A DNA stretch of 41,009 nucleotides from Bacteroidaceae bacterium. Lineage in GTDB: Bacteria; Bacteroidota; Bacteroidia; Bacteroidales; Bacteroidaceae. Location: contig JAKSLM010000023.1 of the NCBI GenBank assembly GCA_024401225.1, positions 1 to 41,009 of the forward strand, read 5' to 3'. Under the pieces are notes generated by a model. That model did not search any database. It was not told where the DNA came from and saw only the letters and a program-made list of their open reading frames with translations. Of the stretch, positions 29,857 through 38,015 are shown one piece after another (within the stretch, counting starts at the first letter, position 1; each line of letters opens with the position of its first letter). The position numbers and the translations under genes are program-made.

Positions 29857-31407
29857 ATGACAAACGGAACACTCCTATGGGTAGACGACGAGATTGAGTT
29901 GCTCAAAGCCTACATCATCTACCTCGAAAAAAAAGAATACCGAGTCGTGACTGCAACCAACGGTCAGGACGCCATCGACATGTGCCGCGAACAGTCGTTC
30001 GACCTCATCTTCCTCGATGAGAACATGCCAGGCATCAGCGGACTGGAGACTCTCGTACACATCAAGGAGATTGCTCCCAACATACCCGTAGTGATGGTGA
30101 CCAAGAGTGAGGAGGAGCACATCATGGACCAGGCGATAGGAAGCAAGATCGCCGACTATCTCATCAAGCCCGTCACCCCTCCGCAGATACTGCTCACACT
30201 CAAGAAGCACCTTCACAAGAAGGCACTCGTCACCGAGGTGGCAAACACCGGCTACCAGCAGAACTTCTCCAAGATCGGCATGCAGATCAACGACTCCTAC
30301 TCTCTCGACGACTGGAAGGAAGTGTATCGCCGACTCGTGTTCTGGGAACTGGAACTTGCCGAGACCAACTCTGAGATGACCGACATGCTTCGCATGCAGA
30401 AACAGGAAGCCAACCAGGAATTTGCCAAATTCGTACGCAAGAACTATCTCGGATGGATCAACGACAAGGACCATCGTCCGCTCATGTCGCCCGACATCTT
30501 CAAGCGCAAGGTATTCCCTTTGCTCGACAACGGAGAGAAGGTTTTCCTCGTTGTATTCGACAATTTCCGCTACGACCAGTGGCGTGAGATAAGCAAATAC
30601 CTGTCCGACGAGTTCACCTTCGATGAGGAGCTCTACATGTCCATCCTTCCTACCGCTACGCAGTACGCCCGCAACTCCATCTTCTCGGGACTCATGCCTA
30701 ACCAGATAGCCAACCTCTTTCCCGACCTTTGGGTTGATGAGGACGAGGAGGAAGGCAAGAACCTCAACGAGGAACCACTCATTCAGACCCAGCTCGACCG
30801 CTACCGCAAGCGCCATACATTCTCATACTACAAGCTCAACAACTCCACCGAATCCGAGCGACTGGTGGAACGCTTCAAGAACCTGCAGAACAACGACCTC
30901 AACGTGCTTGTCATCAACTTCATCGACATGCTGAGCCACGCACGCACCGAGTCGAAGATGGTACGCGAGCTGGCAAGCGACGAGAAGGCATACCGAAGCA
31001 TCACCGCCTCATGGTTCAAGAACTCGCCAGTCAACGACCTGTTCCACGCTCTGGCTCAGACCGATGCCCGCATCATCATCACCACCGACCACGGATCCAT
31101 ACGCGTCAGCAACCCAATCAAGGTGATAGGCGACAAGAACACCAACACCAATCTGCGCTACAAGCTGGGCAAGAACCTCTCGTACAATCAGAAGCAGGTG
31201 TACGAACTCAAGCGTCCGGGCGATGCCTTCCTTCCATCACCCAACCTCAGCACCACCTACATCTTTGCACAGAACGAGGACTTCTTCGCCTACCCTAACA
31301 ACTACAACTACTACGTAGGCTACTTCAAGAACACCTTCCAGCACGGAGGCATCTCGCTCGAAGAGATGCTCATCCCTCTGGTCACAATGAAGAGCAAAAA
31401 GAGATAA
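29857..31407 (+). CDS. porX: PorX-type response regulator with PglZ phosphatase domain
   Basis: 516 residues. The receiver domain (about 1-120) has the acidic pair D10/D11, the phosphorylation site D54 in LIFLDENMPG, the conserved Thr in VVMVTKS and Lys in LIKPV. A helical linker leads to a C-terminal alkaline-phosphatase-superfamily PglZ domain: FLVVFDNFRYDQW, the nucleophile-type Thr in LPTATQYARNS, FIDMLSHARTES and ITTDHGSIRV, all metal-site patterns intact. PorX of Porphyromonas (518 residues) has this architecture and controls T9SS genes together with the kinase PorY. No kinase is adjacent here. tsaE follows by 19 bases. Confidence 0.9.
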   Translation: MTNGTLLWVDDEIELLKAYIIYLEKKEYRVVTATNGQDAIDMCREQSFDLIFLDENMPGISGLETLVHIKEIAPNIPVVMVTKSEEEHIMDQAIGSKIADYLIKPVTPPQILLTLKKHLHKKALVTEVANTGYQQNFSKIGMQINDSYSLDDWKEVYRRLVFWELELAETNSEMTDMLRMQKQEANQEFAKFVRKNYLGWINDKDHRPLMSPDIFKRKVFPLLDNGEKVFLVVFDNFRYDQWREISKYLSDEFTFDEELYMSILPTATQYARNSIFSGLMPNQIANLFPDLWVDEDEEEGKNLNEEPLIQTQLDRYRKRHTFSYYKLNNSTESERLVERFKNLQNNDLNVLVINFIDMLSHARTESKMVRELASDEKAYRSITASWFKNSPVNDLFHALAQTDARIIITTDHGSIRVSNPIKVIGDKNTNTNLRYKLGKNLSYNQKQVYELKRPGDAFLPSPNLSTTYIFAQNEDFFAYPNNYNYYVGYFKNTFQHGGISLEEMLIPLVTMKSKKR

Positions 31408-31972: not shown

Positions 31973-33037
31973 ATGATGAACATCAAGAAGCGCATCATCC
32001 TCGAACTCGACCGCCAGGTACGTGAGAACAAAAAGAAACTGCATCCCCTGCACCAACTGTTTTGGGAATGCACCCTCAGGTGCAACCTCAAGTGCAAGCA
32101 TTGCGGAAGCGACTGCAAAGTAGTGGCAGAAACACCCGACATGCCAGCAGCCGACTTTCTCCGCACCATCGACAGCATAACGCCCCATGTCGATCCACAC
32201 AAACTGATGATCATCTTCTCGGGCGGCGAACCACTGATGCGAAACGACATTGAAGCAGTCGGAGCCGAACTCTACAAGCGCGAATATCCTTGGGGCATGG
32301 TGACCAACGGCATGCTGCTCACCGAGGAACGACTCAAGCGCCTGCTTGCCTCAGGTCTCAGGAGCGTGGCAGTAAGCCTTGACGGCATGCAGGACGACCA
32401 CAACTGGATGCGAGGCAACGACCAGAGCTTCCAGAACGCCATGCGAGCCATCCGCCTACTCGCTCGCACCAAGAACCTCGCATGGGATGTCGTGACATGC
32501 GTGAATGGGCGCAACATCAGCTACTTGCCAGCCATGAAGGACATGCTCTACGAGGCAGGAGTGCGCAACTGGCGCCTCTTCTCCATCTTCCCCCTTGGCA
32601 GAGCAAAGCAATACCCAGAGTTTCAACTATCCAACCCCGACTTCCGAGCCATGATGGACTTCATTAAGGCCACCCGTAAGGAAGGAAAGATACATGCCAG
32701 CTACGGCTGCGAAGGCTTCCTTGGCGACTACGAAGGCGAGGTTCGCGACCATCTCTACATCTGCAATGCAGGCATCAGCGTAGCATCCATACTCATCGAT
32801 GGCAGCATCTCTGCATGCACCAGCATCCGCAGCAAGTTCTACCAGGGCAACATCTACCACGACGACTTCTGGGACGTATGGGAAAACCGTTTCCACAACT
32901 ATCGCAATCGCGAATGGGCACGCCAGGGCGAATGTGCCGACTGCAACATGTTCCGCTATTGCGAGGGCAACGGCATGCACCTCCACGACGAGGATGGCAA
33001 ACTACTGGTTTGCCACCTGAAGAGGCTACGCATTTAG
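31973..33037 (+). CDS. Radical SAM/SPASM enzyme, probable rSAM/lipoprotein system
   Basis: 354 residues, cytoplasmic. The radical SAM 4Fe-4S motif CNLKCKHC has C37, C41 and C44, with extra Cys at 33 and 48. The SAM-binding FSGGEP is near 83-88. A SPASM-like C-terminal domain carries further cysteines at about 246, 264, 282, 321, 324, 330 and 347 (YICNAGIS; SACTSIRS; GECADCNMFRYCEG), enough for auxiliary clusters as in peptide-modifying enzymes. From memory it resembles TIGR04133, paired with lipoprotein TIGR04134, whose likely member is at 35874-36362. Substrate and reaction are unknown. Confidence 0.82.
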   Translation: MMNIKKRIILELDRQVRENKKKLHPLHQLFWECTLRCNLKCKHCGSDCKVVAETPDMPAADFLRTIDSITPHVDPHKLMIIFSGGEPLMRNDIEAVGAELYKREYPWGMVTNGMLLTEERLKRLLASGLRSVAVSLDGMQDDHNWMRGNDQSFQNAMRAIRLLARTKNLAWDVVTCVNGRNISYLPAMKDMLYEAGVRNWRLFSIFPLGRAKQYPEFQLSNPDFRAMMDFIKATRKEGKIHASYGCEGFLGDYEGEVRDHLYICNAGISVASILIDGSISACTSIRSKFYQGNIYHDDFWDVWENRFHNYRNREWARQGECADCNMFRYCEGNGMHLHDEDGKLLVCHLKRLRI

Positions 33038-33056
33038 TAGGGTGTCAGTAGATAGT

Positions 33057-33095
33057 TAGTAGAGTGTTTACGAAACACCCTACTAGCATATTTTT
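33057..33095 (+). terminator. Terminator behind the radical SAM gene
   Basis: A 12-13 bp stem (33057-33069 with 33073-33085, one mismatch) on loop ACG is followed by TTTTTAT. The sequence TAGTAGGGTGT occurs also at 33035-33045, overlapping the stop codon, and at 33122-33132; both are perfectly complementary to the right stem arm, so alternative pairings exist. Confidence 0.6.
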
Positions 33096-33209
33096 ATATC
33101 ATTCAACACATTACAAGAAATTAGTAGGGTGTTGGCACATTTTACGTTTTTTGTGATTTTTGACCAGGATACGGGAATCGCATCTATGCACCAATCCCAG
33201 CCAGCAAAG

Positions 33210-33307
33210 TCCTTGCAAGAAGTTGATAAAGTCCTTGCAAGGAGTTGACAATATCCTTGCAAGGAGTTAGCGATGTCCTTGCAAGGAGTTTGGCATATCC
33301 GTGCAAG
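33210..33307. repeat. Five 22-bp tandem repeats around the palindrome CCTTGCAAGG
   Basis: TCCTTGCAAG begins at 33210, 33232, 33254, 33276 and (as TCCGTGCAAG) 33298, an exact 22-base period. The central copies extend to TCCTTGCAAGGAGTT, with about seven variable bases between. The ten-base core is self-complementary. The array lies between two convergent genes, behind the PD40 gene stop at 33322. Confidence 0.9.
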
Positions 33308-33321
33308 GGTAAAACGCCGTT

Positions 33322-34725
33322 CTACCATTCCCTTGTTGCATTGCGTGTAAACTCGGGGATATTGTACGACTTCATGAGGCGCTGGTGATGGTCGGCACGG
33401 TTTTGGGGAAGGTAGAAGGGCTTGGAGAAGTGGCCTTTGCCATCGAAATGGGCGATGAAGGGGCGTGTGTAGAGTCCATCGATGCGACGCGAGGAGAAGA
33501 TGACCCACTTGCCATTGCTGCTCCATGAATGATAGCTGTCGGTATCGGGGGAGTTGAGGGCGACGAGGGGGCATGTGAAACCGTTGGCCTGGAGGTCGAT
33601 CATCCAAAGGTCGGCCTCATGATGCCAGATGGAGAAGTTGCCATAGGCATGGTGTGTGAACATGAGGTAGCGGCCATCGGGCGAAACACGTGGGAAGGAG
33701 ATGCTGCCGCCTTCCCTTTTTACATTATAGAGGGTGTCGACCTTGGTGTCGAAGATGCCTGTGTGCGGATCGAAGGCTATGCTGCATAGCGAGTAGCATG
33801 CCTCATCGTACTGTGCTGGCATGGCTACGCTATCGGCTGAGCAGAAGTAGAGGGTGCGGCCATCGGGACTCCATGATGGGAAGGTCTCGAACGATGCCCC
33901 GGAGGTGAGCTGGGGGCATGAGAAGGTCTGCATGGTCTCGGTGTTGAGGACTACGATGTCGGATGAGTAGTCGAACACTTCTATACGATTGCGGCTCGTG
34001 GTGTGGAAGAGTTGCTTGGTGTCGTTCTGAGAATAGGCTATGTATTTGCCAGTCGGATGCCAGCTTGGGTATACGAGCGATGGCTGCGGCTGCAGGCGGG
34101 TGTCTGTCCCATCCTTGCGGATGTAGGTTCCTGCACAGGTCTTGCGCATGTGCAGGCTCATGGTCTCGGCATCGTAGTTGCAGTAGGAGTGGCAGTTGAT
34201 GCATCCGCCATCGGTCTTGTCGTTGGTGATGATGGCACGCTCTTCATATGTCTGCAGGTCGCGCTGGTAGATGCCCATTTCGCCCCACACTTCATATCCT
34301 GGCTCTACGAGTCGATAAGTGAGGAAATTGTCGATGGAATCGCGAGAAATGTGTATTTTTTGTGTATTGTACTCTACCCATTCGCCCGATGGATTCGTGC
34401 CTTGTATGCGCACGCTGATGTCGGTTGCATGGCTGGTCAATGAGTGCCAATCGGCTTCGGAGATGCAGAATCCGCGTTCGCCATCGCTCTCCACGATGTG
34501 CTTCGTGCTGCCCGCCTCAAAGATTGCGATGGCATCATGGAGCATGCTCTCGTCCGTAAGGATGAAGGTAGGTGGAGCGATGTTGCATGGCATGGTGACG
34601 TCGTTGTAGTCGGGAAAGGTCGATGCATCGATGCCTAATGCCTTTGCTTTCCGCTCCTGCTGGCTGCAAGCAGCAAGGCTAATGAGGATAGTCAGGAACA
34701 GTATGGAGGAGATGGTGCGTCTCAT
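33322..34725 (-). CDS. PD40 (TolB-like) beta-propeller lipoprotein with CxxCH motif
   Basis: 467 residues with a lipoprotein signal (ILFLTILISLAAC, Cys20). Blades of the WD40-like PD40 type recur: YPSWHPTGKYIAYSQN, FPSWSPDGRTLYFCSA, FPRVSPDGRYLMFTHH and YHSWSSNGKWVIFSSR. Upstream of the propeller, C175-I-N-C178-H179 forms a canonical haem c attachment motif, with C182 and C195 nearby. The N-terminal region (about 50-160) may be a small beta domain. Function is unknown. The start overlaps the DUF6057-like gene by four bases (ATGA), so it is the last gene of a three-gene operon convergent with the radical SAM gene. Confidence 0.8.
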   Translation of the reverse strand: MRRTISSILFLTILISLAACSQQERKAKALGIDASTFPDYNDVTMPCNIAPPTFILTDESMLHDAIAIFEAGSTKHIVESDGERGFCISEADWHSLTSHATDISVRIQGTNPSGEWVEYNTQKIHISRDSIDNFLTYRLVEPGYEVWGEMGIYQRDLQTYEERAIITNDKTDGGCINCHSYCNYDAETMSLHMRKTCAGTYIRKDGTDTRLQPQPSLVYPSWHPTGKYIAYSQNDTKQLFHTTSRNRIEVFDYSSDIVVLNTETMQTFSCPQLTSGASFETFPSWSPDGRTLYFCSADSVAMPAQYDEACYSLCSIAFDPHTGIFDTKVDTLYNVKREGGSISFPRVSPDGRYLMFTHHAYGNFSIWHHEADLWMIDLQANGFTCPLVALNSPDTDSYHSWSSNGKWVIFSSRRIDGLYTRPFIAHFDGKGHFSKPFYLPQNRADHHQRLMKSYNIPEFTRNATREW

Positions 34726-35870
34726 TGTCGTTTCAAGTGATTATAATATTGATCAAAGTATCGTGGCAGGTGTCCGTTGCTACGCAGCACATCGCCAAAC
34801 TCTTCTACCATGCTGACAAACTGGTCGGTGTAGTCGGCAAGGATGTAAAGCGAACCGAGGTAGTGGAGGGTTGTGACGCATTGCTTGGTGCCGCGGGTGC
34901 TGCGCGCCACTTGCAGCAGGTCGTCATCAAGTCCACGGGTTCCGGAGAATCGGTTGTCGGCAAAGATGCATTTGCGCTTCATGGCAAGGGGATGGTTTGA
35001 GGGGTCGGACCCTTTGATGAGTGCAAGGTGCTCATCTGCCCAATCGCGGTAATATAAGGTACGCTTCAGCCAATAGAGATATTTCTTTGCCACTTCGTAC
35101 TGCTCGTAGATGATGTTGGTCTGTACCAGTCGCTGGAGCATGCGAGGCGAGAGGTTGTGCATCTTCTCGTTCGATTCAAATGCGTAGCGCTGGCTCTGCG
35201 CGATGTGTCCCATGGAGTAGTACACGTCGCTCAGATGGGCTGCAATAAGATAGTTGGGGATGTCGCTTACGTAGATGGCATTGATGTTCTGACATGGCTG
35301 GTTGAGAAGCATGTCGCCAAGCTTGCCTTGCTCGGCATACGCCATGTTGAGCAGGTTCTGGTGAAGTTCGTTGGCCACAGGTGCCTTGGATGCGAAATAT
35401 TCGATGATTTCGTCCCATTGCTGGGTGCGAACCATATCCGATCCCTCGATGAATTGGCGATTGACTGCCGTTTCGCCTCCCATAGGCAGCAGGGTGCTGA
35501 GGGACATCTGAGTGGTCCAGCAGACGATGCCCACATTTGCCATGAGCGAGATGATGAGGCTGGCTATGCTTGTCACAACCGCTCCGCACTTCACACGGCG
35601 CATGATGCCCCATACTGCCATGCAGGTGATGGCTGCAAGGAGGGAGAGGAAGAGTATGCCATGCCACTGGTGCGCAAAGAACTGCAACACGAATCCTCTC
35701 ACGGCTTCTGCACATCCCACGGTATGGATGTACTGGGTGTCGTAATAGAATGTATTCCACCCTTCGCAATAGGTGAGTACCGGTTGCGACATTGCGGTGA
35801 ATACTCCTGACAATACGATTGCTATCAGCAGCACAAGGGGCTGCAGGCTCCTGCGGGGAAATGATGACAT
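34722..35870 (-). CDS. DUF6057-like integral membrane protein
   Basis: 382 residues with three N-terminal membrane helices (about 11-28, LVLLIAIVLSGVFTAM; about 70-90, ILFLSLLAAITCMAVWGIM; about 97-120, VVTSIASLIISLMANVGIV), then a helical, TPR-like soluble region (NYLIAAHLSDVYYSMGHIAQ; LYILADYTDQFVSM). I associate it from memory with DUF6057, found in Bacteroidales beside PD40 lipoproteins; this is not certain. Function is unknown. It starts three bases after the small lipoprotein gene and overlaps the PD40 gene by four. Confidence 0.72.
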   Translation of the reverse strand: MSSFPRRSLQPLVLLIAIVLSGVFTAMSQPVLTYCEGWNTFYYDTQYIHTVGCAEAVRGFVLQFFAHQWHGILFLSLLAAITCMAVWGIMRRVKCGAVVTSIASLIISLMANVGIVCWTTQMSLSTLLPMGGETAVNRQFIEGSDMVRTQQWDEIIEYFASKAPVANELHQNLLNMAYAEQGKLGDMLLNQPCQNINAIYVSDIPNYLIAAHLSDVYYSMGHIAQSQRYAFESNEKMHNLSPRMLQRLVQTNIIYEQYEVAKKYLYWLKRTLYYRDWADEHLALIKGSDPSNHPLAMKRKCIFADNRFSGTRGLDDDLLQVARSTRGTKQCVTTLHYLGSLYILADYTDQFVSMVEEFGDVLRSNGHLPRYFDQYYNHLKRQ

Positions 35871-35873
35871 TGC

Positions 35874-36362
35874 TTACTTCTTCTTTTTGAGCTTAAAGTC
35901 GTGAGTGAAGCGGTAGACTCCAGTGTTCCACGCTCCTTCGCCTTCAGCAACTTTCTGCGGATTGACCACATCGACTGAGTCGTCCTCGTAGGTTCCGGTA
36001 GGATCGTGGGCTACTACGCGCATGGTGACAAGGTCTGAAGGTTCTTTATGGATGCGTTGGGTATATGTGCCCTTTTCATCGGTCTTTACGGTATCGCTTT
36101 CGATGTATCTACGTCCACTTCCGTCGATGAATTCGGGATAGACCTTTCGGATTATCACTTCCTCACCCTGCACGCCTTTGTCGCTCTCATCAAGCACGGT
36201 TCCTGTGGCTTCGTATATTGCATACGGACTACCATACTCCACCACCATCGAGCCGTATTCGTCAGGGCTCTCTTTGCTGCACGAGGTAACGCCAAACAAT
36301 GCAAGTATGAACGACAGCACACTATTGCACATCGTCAGCCATTTGTTTCTAATCTCTATCAT
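35874..36362 (-). CDS. Radical SAM-associated putative lipoprotein
   Basis: 162 residues. The N-terminal helix ends in a lipobox (LALFGVTSC, Cys28), followed by SKESPDEYGSMVVEYGSPYA and YEATGTVLDE, then a small beta domain of carboxypeptidase-regulatory or Ig type (TVKTDEKGTYTQRIHKEP; GTYEDDSVDVV) and a lysine-rich end FKLKKKK. The VEYGSPYA-type segment after the lipobox is what I remember of TIGR04134, the lipoprotein partner of the TIGR04133 radical SAM enzyme. First gene of the operon with the DUF6057-like and PD40 genes. No consensus promoter was seen upstream. Confidence 0.75.
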   Translation of the reverse strand: MIEIRNKWLTMCNSVLSFILALFGVTSCSKESPDEYGSMVVEYGSPYAIYEATGTVLDESDKGVQGEEVIIRKVYPEFIDGSGRRYIESDTVKTDEKGTYTQRIHKEPSDLVTMRVVAHDPTGTYEDDSVDVVNPQKVAEGEGAWNTGVYRFTHDFKLKKKK

Positions 36363-36426: not shown

Positions 36427-37980
36427 TCAACCAATAACCCATTTCTCAATGTTGCGGGTTTTGCTATCGAAGTTCATGCCAATGCGAACGACCTGTCGCC
36501 CTGTGGTATCGAATGGCAAAGTGTAATGCTTGTCTTCTATCTGCGCCAACGCTTCTTCTGCCGTTCCATCAAGCTTGAACTCCATAACATAACAATACTG
36601 AGGCGATTGAAGCACAAGGTCTATGCGACCCTCGCTGGTATGATACTCTGCTTGCACGTAGAAACCCAATAGTTTGAACAGCAACCAAAGAACATTCTGG
36701 TAGTGGTTCTCCAGATTCTTCACCAATTCGTAAGGCGTGTCGGAAAAGAGAGAACGCAGACGCTTGAGGAATTGCTCGGTATTGCCGTTGCGCACATCCA
36801 TCACAAAGTTCTTTATGTCGAATGCCGTTTGCCCTTTACGCACGGACGTATAGCAAGGCAATAGGAATCTTGTGAACCCTTCTTCCACCTCCTTGTTAGG
36901 AAAACCGAGAGTGTATACGCTAAACTCTGGATCATAGTCCTTTATCGTAAGATAGCCGCTCTGATAAATCACAGGAATAGGGTTCGTGCTATTGGCATCT
37001 ACACTATTTAGTGTCTCATCATCTGCCTCTACCTGCGACATCTGCTCCAGATTGTAGTCATGCATCTGGAGAAGATCAACGAGATATGTAGGGGTGCCAG
37101 TCTCAAACCAATAGCTTCCATACTTCAGCTTGTTCAAGGTGTTCAGCAAGCTGAAAGGATTATACACACCTTTGGAGTCTTCCAAAAAATGATAGCCATC
37201 GTAACGTATACGCAACGTTTCTATAGCTTCTTCCGCCGTCTGGTTTTGGCTGGCAGCCAAAGCCTTAATGCTTGGTAGGAAACAGCTTAGAAGTTCCTCC
37301 TCTGTAACACCACAAATATCATAGTAAGGCAACGACATTGAGATGTCGTCAAGATGGTTCAAATCGCTGAATACGCTAACCTTGCCAAACTTCGTGACAC
37401 CCGTCAGCATAGCAAATTTAATGCATCCGTCCATTGACTTCAAAGCACCATAGAAGCCATTTAATGTACCGCGGAATTGCTCTTGCAAATCCTCGTTGCC
37501 TATTGCTTGAAGCAAAGGTTTATCATACTCGTCAACGAGAACCACAACTCGCTGTCCAGTCTGCTTATAGGCTGCCTCTATGACACGTTCAAAACGAATA
37601 CCATGTGAATACGTCTCAAATCCTGTAGGATATTGCATTTCCCACAACTTTAATTGAGCATCAAGCTTCCTCTCCAAAGAAGAACCAGTGTCGTATTTCT
37701 CCGCATTCAGATCAAGATGCAAGACGGGATGTTCGGTCCAATCCTTTTCCAGTTGTTCGATAGCAAGACCTTTGAAGAGCTCTTTCTTCCCTTGAAAATA
37801 TGCCTTTATCGTAGATATCAGCAAAGACTTTCCGAAACGACGTGGACGGGAAAGGAAATAGTATCTTCCATCATTAACCAACTTGTAAACCAAGCGCGTC
37901 TTATCCACGTAAAGATATCCATCCTTACGCAGACTCTCAAAGTCTTGTATACCTATCGGAAGTTTCTGAACTGCATCCAT
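36427..37980 (-). CDS. AAA-ATPase-like / PD-(D/E)XK nuclease-like protein
   Basis: 517 residues from the ATG at 37978-37980. The N-terminal part matches the AAA-ATPase-like family of Bacteroidetes: LPIGIQDFESLRKDGYLYVDK, a P-loop variant RPRRFGKSLL (about 45-54), and VVLVDEYDKPLL as Walker B. The C-terminus has a PD-(D/E)XK-type signature, EGRIDLVLQ and CYVMEFKLDG. Such proteins occur in many copies per genome and their function is not established; a role in mobile elements or defence has been suggested. A TTG start ten codons upstream is rejected since it overlaps a -7 box. The gene is more AT-rich than its neighbours. Confidence 0.85.
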   Translation of the reverse strand: MDAVQKLPIGIQDFESLRKDGYLYVDKTRLVYKLVNDGRYYFLSRPRRFGKSLLISTIKAYFQGKKELFKGLAIEQLEKDWTEHPVLHLDLNAEKYDTGSSLERKLDAQLKLWEMQYPTGFETYSHGIRFERVIEAAYKQTGQRVVVLVDEYDKPLLQAIGNEDLQEQFRGTLNGFYGALKSMDGCIKFAMLTGVTKFGKVSVFSDLNHLDDISMSLPYYDICGVTEEELLSCFLPSIKALAASQNQTAEEAIETLRIRYDGYHFLEDSKGVYNPFSLLNTLNKLKYGSYWFETGTPTYLVDLLQMHDYNLEQMSQVEADDETLNSVDANSTNPIPVIYQSGYLTIKDYDPEFSVYTLGFPNKEVEEGFTRFLLPCYTSVRKGQTAFDIKNFVMDVRNGNTEQFLKRLRSLFSDTPYELVKNLENHYQNVLWLLFKLLGFYVQAEYHTSEGRIDLVLQSPQYCYVMEFKLDGTAEEALAQIEDKHYTLPFDTTGRQVVRIGMNFDSKTRNIEKWVIG

Positions 37981-38007
37981 AGTGGAAAAATCATTGATTA
38001 CATGTTG

Positions 38008-38015
38008 CAAAGTTA
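38008..38015 (-). promoter_or_regulatory. -7 box of the AAA-ATPase gene
   Basis: Minus-strand TAACTTTG fits TAnnTTTG; TTG-containing sequence lies near the -33 position (38036-38033). The predicted start near 38001 leaves a leader of about 20 bases before the ATG at 37980. Confidence 0.55.

Follow-up and report, generated by a model that had tools for sequence, protein, structure and literature searches.

What a radical S-adenosylmethionine (SAM) enzyme acts on when it is encoded beside envelope proteins is the question raised by a locus in a 41,009-nucleotide stretch of DNA from a gut bacterium of the Bacteroidaceae (contig JAKSLM010000023.1 of assembly GCA_024401225.1), hereafter called the window. 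At positions 31,973 to 36,362, a plus-strand gene for a radical SAM enzyme with a SPASM domain converges with a minus-strand operon, in which a lipoprotein gene is followed, after a gap of 3 bases, by a gene for a DUF6057 membrane protein and then, with an overlap of 4 bases, by a gene for a PD40 propeller lipoprotein. The coordinates, strands and spacing obtained from the sequence and the translated open reading frames (ORFs) agree for all four genes with a preliminary description of the DNA, including the convergent orientation and the tight packing of the operon. As a whole, the locus is best explained, in our judgement with moderate confidence, as a protein-modification system whose radical SAM enzyme would act on a Tyr-Gly dyad in lipoprotein precursors. 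The genes and sites central to this proposal are:

31973..33037, plus strand: TIGR04133 radical SAM/SPASM enzyme of 354 amino acids (607.1 bits against a curated NCBIfam cut-off of 425; Radical_SAM and SPASM Pfam domains; cysteine pattern)
32081..32104, plus strand: CxxxCxxC cluster motif of the radical SAM domain (C37-C44; translation and conservation)
35874..36362, minus strand: TIGR04134-type lipoprotein of 162 amino acids, probable substrate of the enzyme (93.6 bits against a curated cut-off of 39.8)
36279..36362, minus strand: lipoprotein signal peptide, ending in ILALFGVTSC with the lipobox cysteine C28 (alignment of 49 proteins)
36225..36239, minus strand: E-Y-G-S-P (residues 42-46), the XYGxP motif and proposed modification site (alignment of 49 proteins and motif tests)
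36252..36260, minus strand: second E-Y-G (residues 35-37), followed by S-M and no Pro, a possible second site judging from the translation

The pairing of enzyme and lipoprotein, which the preliminary description had likened to the TIGR04133/TIGR04134 families, is strongly supported by profile scores, genetic linkage and co-occurrence. Both window proteins score above the curated cut-offs of these families (rSAM_w_lipo and lipo_with_rSAM), hypothetical equivalogs that have been named but not explained, and the profile search proposed at the outset likewise returned DUF6057 above its cut-off. Translation and an alignment of 156 homologues also bear out the presence of at least seven C-terminal cysteines in the enzyme: C37, C41 and C44 of the CxxxCxxC motif as well as C48, C176, C246, C264, C282, C321, C324, C330 and C347 are each kept in 155 or 156 of the 156 sequences. 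At a threshold of E<=1e-60, TIGR04133 enzymes occur in 36 of 149 genomes drawn from the order, 45 of 151 drawn from the family and 2 of 198 drawn from the phylum (the window's own genome included) and thus form a mainly Bacteroidales family. The single genome in the phylum draw besides that of the window has a partner with EYGVREP and adds little outside the Bacteroidales.

TIGR04134 matches over the cut-off, the only ones counted, co-occur with the enzyme in all 18 genomes that have them in the order draw, and in 19 of 21 such genomes in the family draw (Fisher's test). One of the two exceptions has unreadable sequence beside the lipoprotein gene, such that the presence of the enzyme cannot be judged there; the other genome has no match to the enzyme, and the motif of its lipoprotein reads EHGTP, with the Tyr replaced by His. 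Low-scoring TIGR04134 matches, mostly in ORFs of 600-1,000 amino acids, were set aside as probably reflecting a shared CarboxypepD_reg-like domain. In the window's genome, which is 84% complete, one match to the enzyme and one to TIGR04134 were found.

TIGR04134 does not account for all partner bodies. The proteins encoded next to the enzyme comprise Ig/transthyretin-like TIGR04134 domains, short tails of 60-100 amino acids and, as judged by eye, coiled-coil-like regions of 90-190 amino acids, which are unrelated to each other. What they usually have in common, and what reaches beyond TIGR04134, is an X-Tyr-Gly-x-Pro (XYGxP) motif in one to four copies. The preliminary description recognized the pair of families and did not notice this motif, which marks the probable substrates. 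A same-strand ORF within 1.5 kb that contains XYGx(x)P was present at 121 of 133 distinct enzyme loci, a value that is descriptive only, because the motif was first noticed in these same loci. YGxP was found in lipoprotein-like ORFs in 96 of 132 cases near the enzyme (same strand, less than 900 bp away) versus 1 of 73 far from it (at least 3 kb), and in a mean of 2.4 of 132 in a shuffled-sequence control, with related loci carrying full weight each in the near/far counts. In addition, a signal peptide ending in [LF]G[FILMVY]x0-3C characterized 55 of the 96 motif lipoproteins, compared with none of the 73 far ORFs. Among 167 distinct contexts, the X residue was Met in 73, Val in 29, Glu in 21, Lys in 11, Leu in 10 and Cys in 7 cases.

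The 12 loci of the initial set without a motif partner include the window itself, whose lipoprotein gene lies 2.8 kb off and on the other strand. At L134 (1450-3051), the enzyme and a TIGR04134-type lipoprotein share one frame of 533 amino acids with an internal signal peptide and the motif VEYGTP; this frame may represent a fusion or contain a separate internal start. The enzyme is at a contig edge at L158, L167 and L170, L026 (206 bits) is not a real member and was excluded from the near/far count, and no convincing motif partner was found at L043, L052, L149, L200, L213 and L220. L148, L196 and L198 are counted among the 121 on account of distant or unlikely ORFs and are better regarded as further real misses.

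Of 25 loci read afterwards, none of them a near-copy of an earlier one, 16 passed the same motif test. The right gene was responsible in 15 of these; the pass at L234 was due to an ABC ATPase, and the real partner at this locus has ACYGVD. Among those that did not pass, L230 has a partner with EYGVREP, no motif partner was visible at L239, L252 and L254, and the remaining five are considered below. A further 21 genus loci (L326-L346) yielded 19 passes and two misses, both at contig edges. This group was rejected as a second independent set, 14 of its enzymes being near-identical to those of loci already used; its seven new loci all passed.

Presence and absence of the motif lipoproteins also follow the enzyme. 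A profile (A3) of 18 short motif lipoproteins encoded next to the enzyme, from which an out-of-frame ORF overlapping the true lipoprotein at L151 had been left out, matched 25 of 26 genomes of the window's genus with the enzyme and none of 19 without it (P ~8e-12). Many of the 18 sequences came from this genus, and the informative half of the comparison is therefore the absence of matches in the 19 enzyme-less genomes. In the one enzyme-positive genome without an A3 match (G512), a TIGR04134-type motif lipoprotein adjoins the enzyme gene. Weak matches (E 2.9e-6 to 5.6e-5) were obtained in G507, G514 and G525; the last of these lacks a true YG, with another ORF beside the enzyme gene of this genome containing CYGPSP. 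The N-terminus of the window lipoprotein is matched by the A3 profile as well (E 1.1e-9).

Lipoproteins related to the partners are also encoded on other contigs of enzyme-positive genomes (L282, L283, L285, two in L286, L287, L288, two in L289, and, as weak matches, L292 and L295). Because 8 of these 11 unlinked relatives keep Tyr-Gly, with YGxP retained in 5, one enzyme probably serves several proteins. In one genome of the window's genus, a BACON-domain lipoprotein with ACYGPPP is likewise encoded on a contig other than that of the enzyme (L325, 1030-1698). At L246 and L248, motif proteins adjacent to the enzyme contain repeated YGPP, YGGP or YGPMP and show no visible lipobox, and substrates may for this reason not all be lipoproteins. 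YGTFP and VYGRP in PD40 proteins of the other genus that has the four-gene set (see below) were not counted as sites, as both fall within propeller sequence.

The pattern of conserved residues helps to define which part of these proteins matters. In 49 aligned TIGR04134-type proteins, only the lipobox Cys (C28), the Gly of the YG dyad (G44) and one Gly of the domain are invariant; conservation of at least 90% is seen for Y43 and P46, for L20 and G24 of the signal peptide and for four residues of the domain. In the 18 short lipoproteins, M-Y-G, the lipobox Cys, a Gly in the signal peptide, a Pro that precedes the motif and a Met further downstream are invariant. Taken together, the conservation of the motif across unrelated bodies, its linkage to the enzyme gene and the co-occurrence in presence and absence directly support a connection between enzyme and motif, and we consider it likely that the enzyme modifies these proteins at YG. 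The motif could instead be a mere recognition or sorting tag, with another residue such as the lipobox Cys being modified, or a tag for a lipoprotein export pathway. This explanation would suit a divergent clade in which X is the lipobox Cys (ACYGTP) and the 32 of 111 motifs in which Cys is the residue before X. We nevertheless think it improbable: the motif can lie more than 100 residues from the lipobox Cys and occurs in the two lipobox-less proteins described above, it is scarcely found in lipoprotein-like ORFs elsewhere on these contigs (1 of 73), and in the short lipoproteins the only invariant residues of the mature part are the Pro, M-Y-G and the later Met.

If the Tyr-Gly dyad is the target, a crosslink is one conceivable outcome, with a C-C or C-O bond joining the Tyr ring to a nearby residue (a cyclophane or a PqqE-type product, -2 Da). 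The related SPASM families include the mycofactocin maturase MftC (TIGR03962; 106.9 bits with the window enzyme) and, as a weak match, PqqE, radical SAM enzymes that act on a Tyr of small dedicated precursors to generate redox cofactors; moreover, an aromatic residue (Y, F or W) is common at position +7 (67 of 111 motifs). However, a three-residue cyclophane requires a beta-carbon at its third residue, and the position two residues after Tyr is occupied by Gly in 7 of 111 motifs and by Pro in 12, which makes this product less likely; other Tyr-centred reactions are conceivable. Besides the Gly and, usually, the Pro, no further residue was seen to be conserved across the different bodies, and a crosslink at the motif appears rather unlikely overall.

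The families that score highest with the window enzyme after its own are AhbD, NirJ2, TIGR04053 and NirJ. They would fit a scenario in which the enzyme produces a small molecule, in line with its kinship to radical SAM enzymes of heme pathways, and the lipoproteins hitch-hike with no functional link. Against this scenario, three of these four matches span only about the first 250 residues (that to NirJ2 covers most of the protein), one and the same motif recurs in several unrelated bodies and is retained by most unlinked relatives, and its presence tracks the enzyme; we regard it as very improbable. A different connection is offered by TIGR04103, which we take to be the PlpX family (IPR026482). 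Of 29 TIGR04133 members, 4 (L046, L056, L168 and L245) score best against it when their own family is set aside, and the maximum among the 29 is 145.8 bits (L037); one other maturase family also ranks first among these members, and no rank was seen for L209. None of 61 relatives yielded a TIGR04103 match at E<=1e-60. The sequence kinship of TIGR04133 to the PlpX family is loosely supported. In the control genome of Bacteroides ihuae, a TIGR04103 match reached this threshold and stayed under the family cut-off; Bacteroides may harbour a closer relative of PlpX.

Several observations weigh against a splicease-like enzyme that modifies YG in lipoprotein precursors. The window enzyme scores 102 bits against TIGR04103, whose cut-off is 725, and in most of the 29 members, that of the window included, heme-pathway enzymes (AhbD, NirJ2) or TIGR04053 outscore this family. 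Neither a PlpY/RRE partner nor a Nif11/NHLP leader was noticed, with no dedicated search for PlpY or RREs, and none of the seven window genes scanned has an RRE/PqqD match in Pfam, in which short RREs are easily missed. Whereas the TIGR04133/TIGR04134 pair is adjacent in most relatives examined, the window lipoprotein gene is separated from and convergent with the enzyme gene, with the DUF6057 and PD40 genes in between. In one lineage (L243, L244, L250, L251 and L253), the enzyme gene lies directly downstream of a CNNM-like gene, with no motif lipoprotein visible; Pfam confirms CNNM/CBS domains for L278, a longer stretch of the L244 locus. At 2 of the 25 later loci and 6 of the 21 genus loci, the loose motif test is also passed by ORFs on the opposite strand. 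Finally, partners without the Pro (ACYGVD, CKYGTD, KYGTES) or with a later one (EYGVREP) exist, second sites in close relatives can be MYS rather than MYG, and no YG is present in L282, L292 and L295, unlinked relatives of which the last two are weak matches.

On balance, we favour a mechanism in which the TIGR04133 enzyme would act in the cytoplasm on lipoprotein precursors. It would recognize the signal peptide as a leader, often ending in (L/F)-G-(hydrophobic)-x-C, together with one or more X-Tyr-Gly-x-Pro motifs, and presumably modify the Tyr-Gly dyad prior to export. After export and lipidation, the precursor would be anchored in the envelope, still carrying its altered residue. Such a scheme may be compared to the anaerobic sulfatase-maturating enzyme, another SPASM radical SAM protein with a weak sequence match to the window enzyme, which modifies a short Cys/Ser-x-Pro-x-Arg motif of a protein bound for export and differs from the system proposed here in both residue and product.

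As for the chemistry, a tentative possibility is splicing, in which tyramine would be excised from the motif (-135.07 Da per site). It is proposed mainly because X-Tyr-Gly, with which the motif starts, is also found at the sites of the PlpXY spliceases, which, according to PMC10533398, act on MYG and LYG. Some keto-amides produced by enzymes are reactive towards tetrazine reagents (PMC10533398). Judging from reports on these spliceases (PMC10533398, PMC11002830, PMC10373908), further similarities lie in the SPASM radical SAM enzyme, Met and Leu as natural X residues, several sites per precursor and the related sequence mentioned above. The TIGR04133 system differs from them in that most of its substrates are lipoproteins that bear a signal peptide, the third residue after Tyr is usually Pro, and the organisms belong to a different phylum.

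The two remaining genes and a repeat array at the locus are:

33205..33308, no strand: array of 22-bp repeats with the palindromic core CCTTGCAAGG (TRF)
33322..34725, minus strand: PD40 (TolB-like propeller) lipoprotein with CxxCH, 467 amino acids (PD40 E 4.5e-22)
34189..34203, minus strand: CINCH (C175-H179) of the PD40 protein (translation and alignment)
34722..35870, minus strand: shortened DUF6057 membrane protein of 382 amino acids (PF19529 E 1.5e-53)

The membrane protein scores 183.1 bits against DUF6057 (PF19529; gathering cut-off 29.8). It matches model positions 9-110 and 276-509 of 569, and the alignment gaps show that, compared to relatives of ~560-660 amino acids, it lacks most of the central membrane part and the C-terminus. 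Other, longer DUF6057 copies are found in the same genome. In the PDB, no informative match for DUF6057 was found (a single match, E 0.052). The PD40 protein belongs with the TolB-type propellers, which it matches only weakly. Its CxxCH motif, noted previously, is not known as a TolB feature and is present in 49 of 50 aligned homologues, as are a His and an Arg further along the sequence.

The preliminary description had suggested that all four genes constitute a complete envelope system, in which the lipoprotein, modified by the radical SAM enzyme, is assembled with the DUF6057 protein and the PD40 propeller. In favour of a single machine, the genes are tightly packed in the window, and the same set recurs co-directionally in one other genus: three loci have the order DUF6057-PD40-lipoprotein-enzyme and two the order DUF6057-PD40-enzyme, all on one strand, with both contigs of the latter type ending just past the enzyme gene; a sixth place has an enzyme fragment at a contig edge and no PD40 gene. 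About 0.18 adjacencies would be expected by chance in the 45 enzyme-positive genomes, versus two lineages seen (P ~0.014 under a crude uniform model that uses the PD40 counts of the family draw). However, a neighbourhood survey of the kind suggested initially, which found the association of enzyme and lipoprotein conserved, located PD40/DUF6057 genes next to the enzyme only in the window and this one genus, adjacency counts being limited by the fact that only 57 of 239 enzyme loci (duplicates included) extend at least 5 kb to both sides. At L226, a weak PD40/DUF6057 match lies 7 kb away. Moreover, PD40 homologues occur in 110 of 151 genomes of the family, as opposed to 45 with the enzyme, and the window DUF6057 protein has lost much of its membrane part. 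We regard a joint machine as unlikely and reject the notion of four genes forming one conserved system in favour of a recurrent but minority arrangement. DUF6057 and PD40 represent a module of their own, often in multiple copies: in the order draw, 32 or more of the 37 PD40 places have DUF6057 within 400 bp, and several pairs adjoin large genes that resemble those of TonB receptors or SusD in size alone. We treat their partnership with the enzyme/lipoprotein pair as optional, such that they would add an envelope module to the modification system at this locus.

The repeat array comprises about four 22-bp units and sits between the convergent PD40 and enzyme genes; a search with the unit gave 8 matches (four sites, each on both strands) versus 0.09 expected. 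Further afield, porX and tsaE lie upstream of the locus and a SusD gene downstream. The porX product, encoded at 29857-31407, two genes upstream of the enzyme gene, is a PorX-type response regulator with a PglZ domain (type IX secretion regulation), and an AAA-ATPase-like/PDDEXK_9 protein is encoded at 36427-38010, between the locus and the SusD gene.

We found no paper on TIGR04133, TIGR04134 or DUF6057, and among the titles listed none describes the motif; the likeliest overlap, Scott et al. 2022 (Chem 8:2659), lies outside this coverage. The pair of radical SAM enzyme and lipoprotein was thus known by name, and what is probably new is its likely target, a motif-directed radical SAM modification of envelope lipoproteins. 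The motif makes this named but unexplained pair testable, providing a probable site, other likely substrates in each genome and a mass shift to seek. As to possible roles, PMC11117315, citing Scott et al. 2022, describes spliceotide products as protease inhibitors. We may speculate, with considerable reservation, that Bacteroidales use a splicease-like TIGR04133 enzyme to display ribosomally produced, membrane-tethered lipoproteins with alpha-keto-beta-amino acids at XYGxP, whose keto-amides would trap gut or rumen proteases with a specificity set by X (Met, Val, Glu, Lys or Leu), one enzyme equipping several scattered lipoproteins with different binding domains. Should splicing indeed take place, a major order of gut and rumen bacteria would carry backbone-edited beta-amino acids in its envelope lipoproteins, beyond the realm of peptide natural products, with a reactive keto-amide group placed at the cell envelope.

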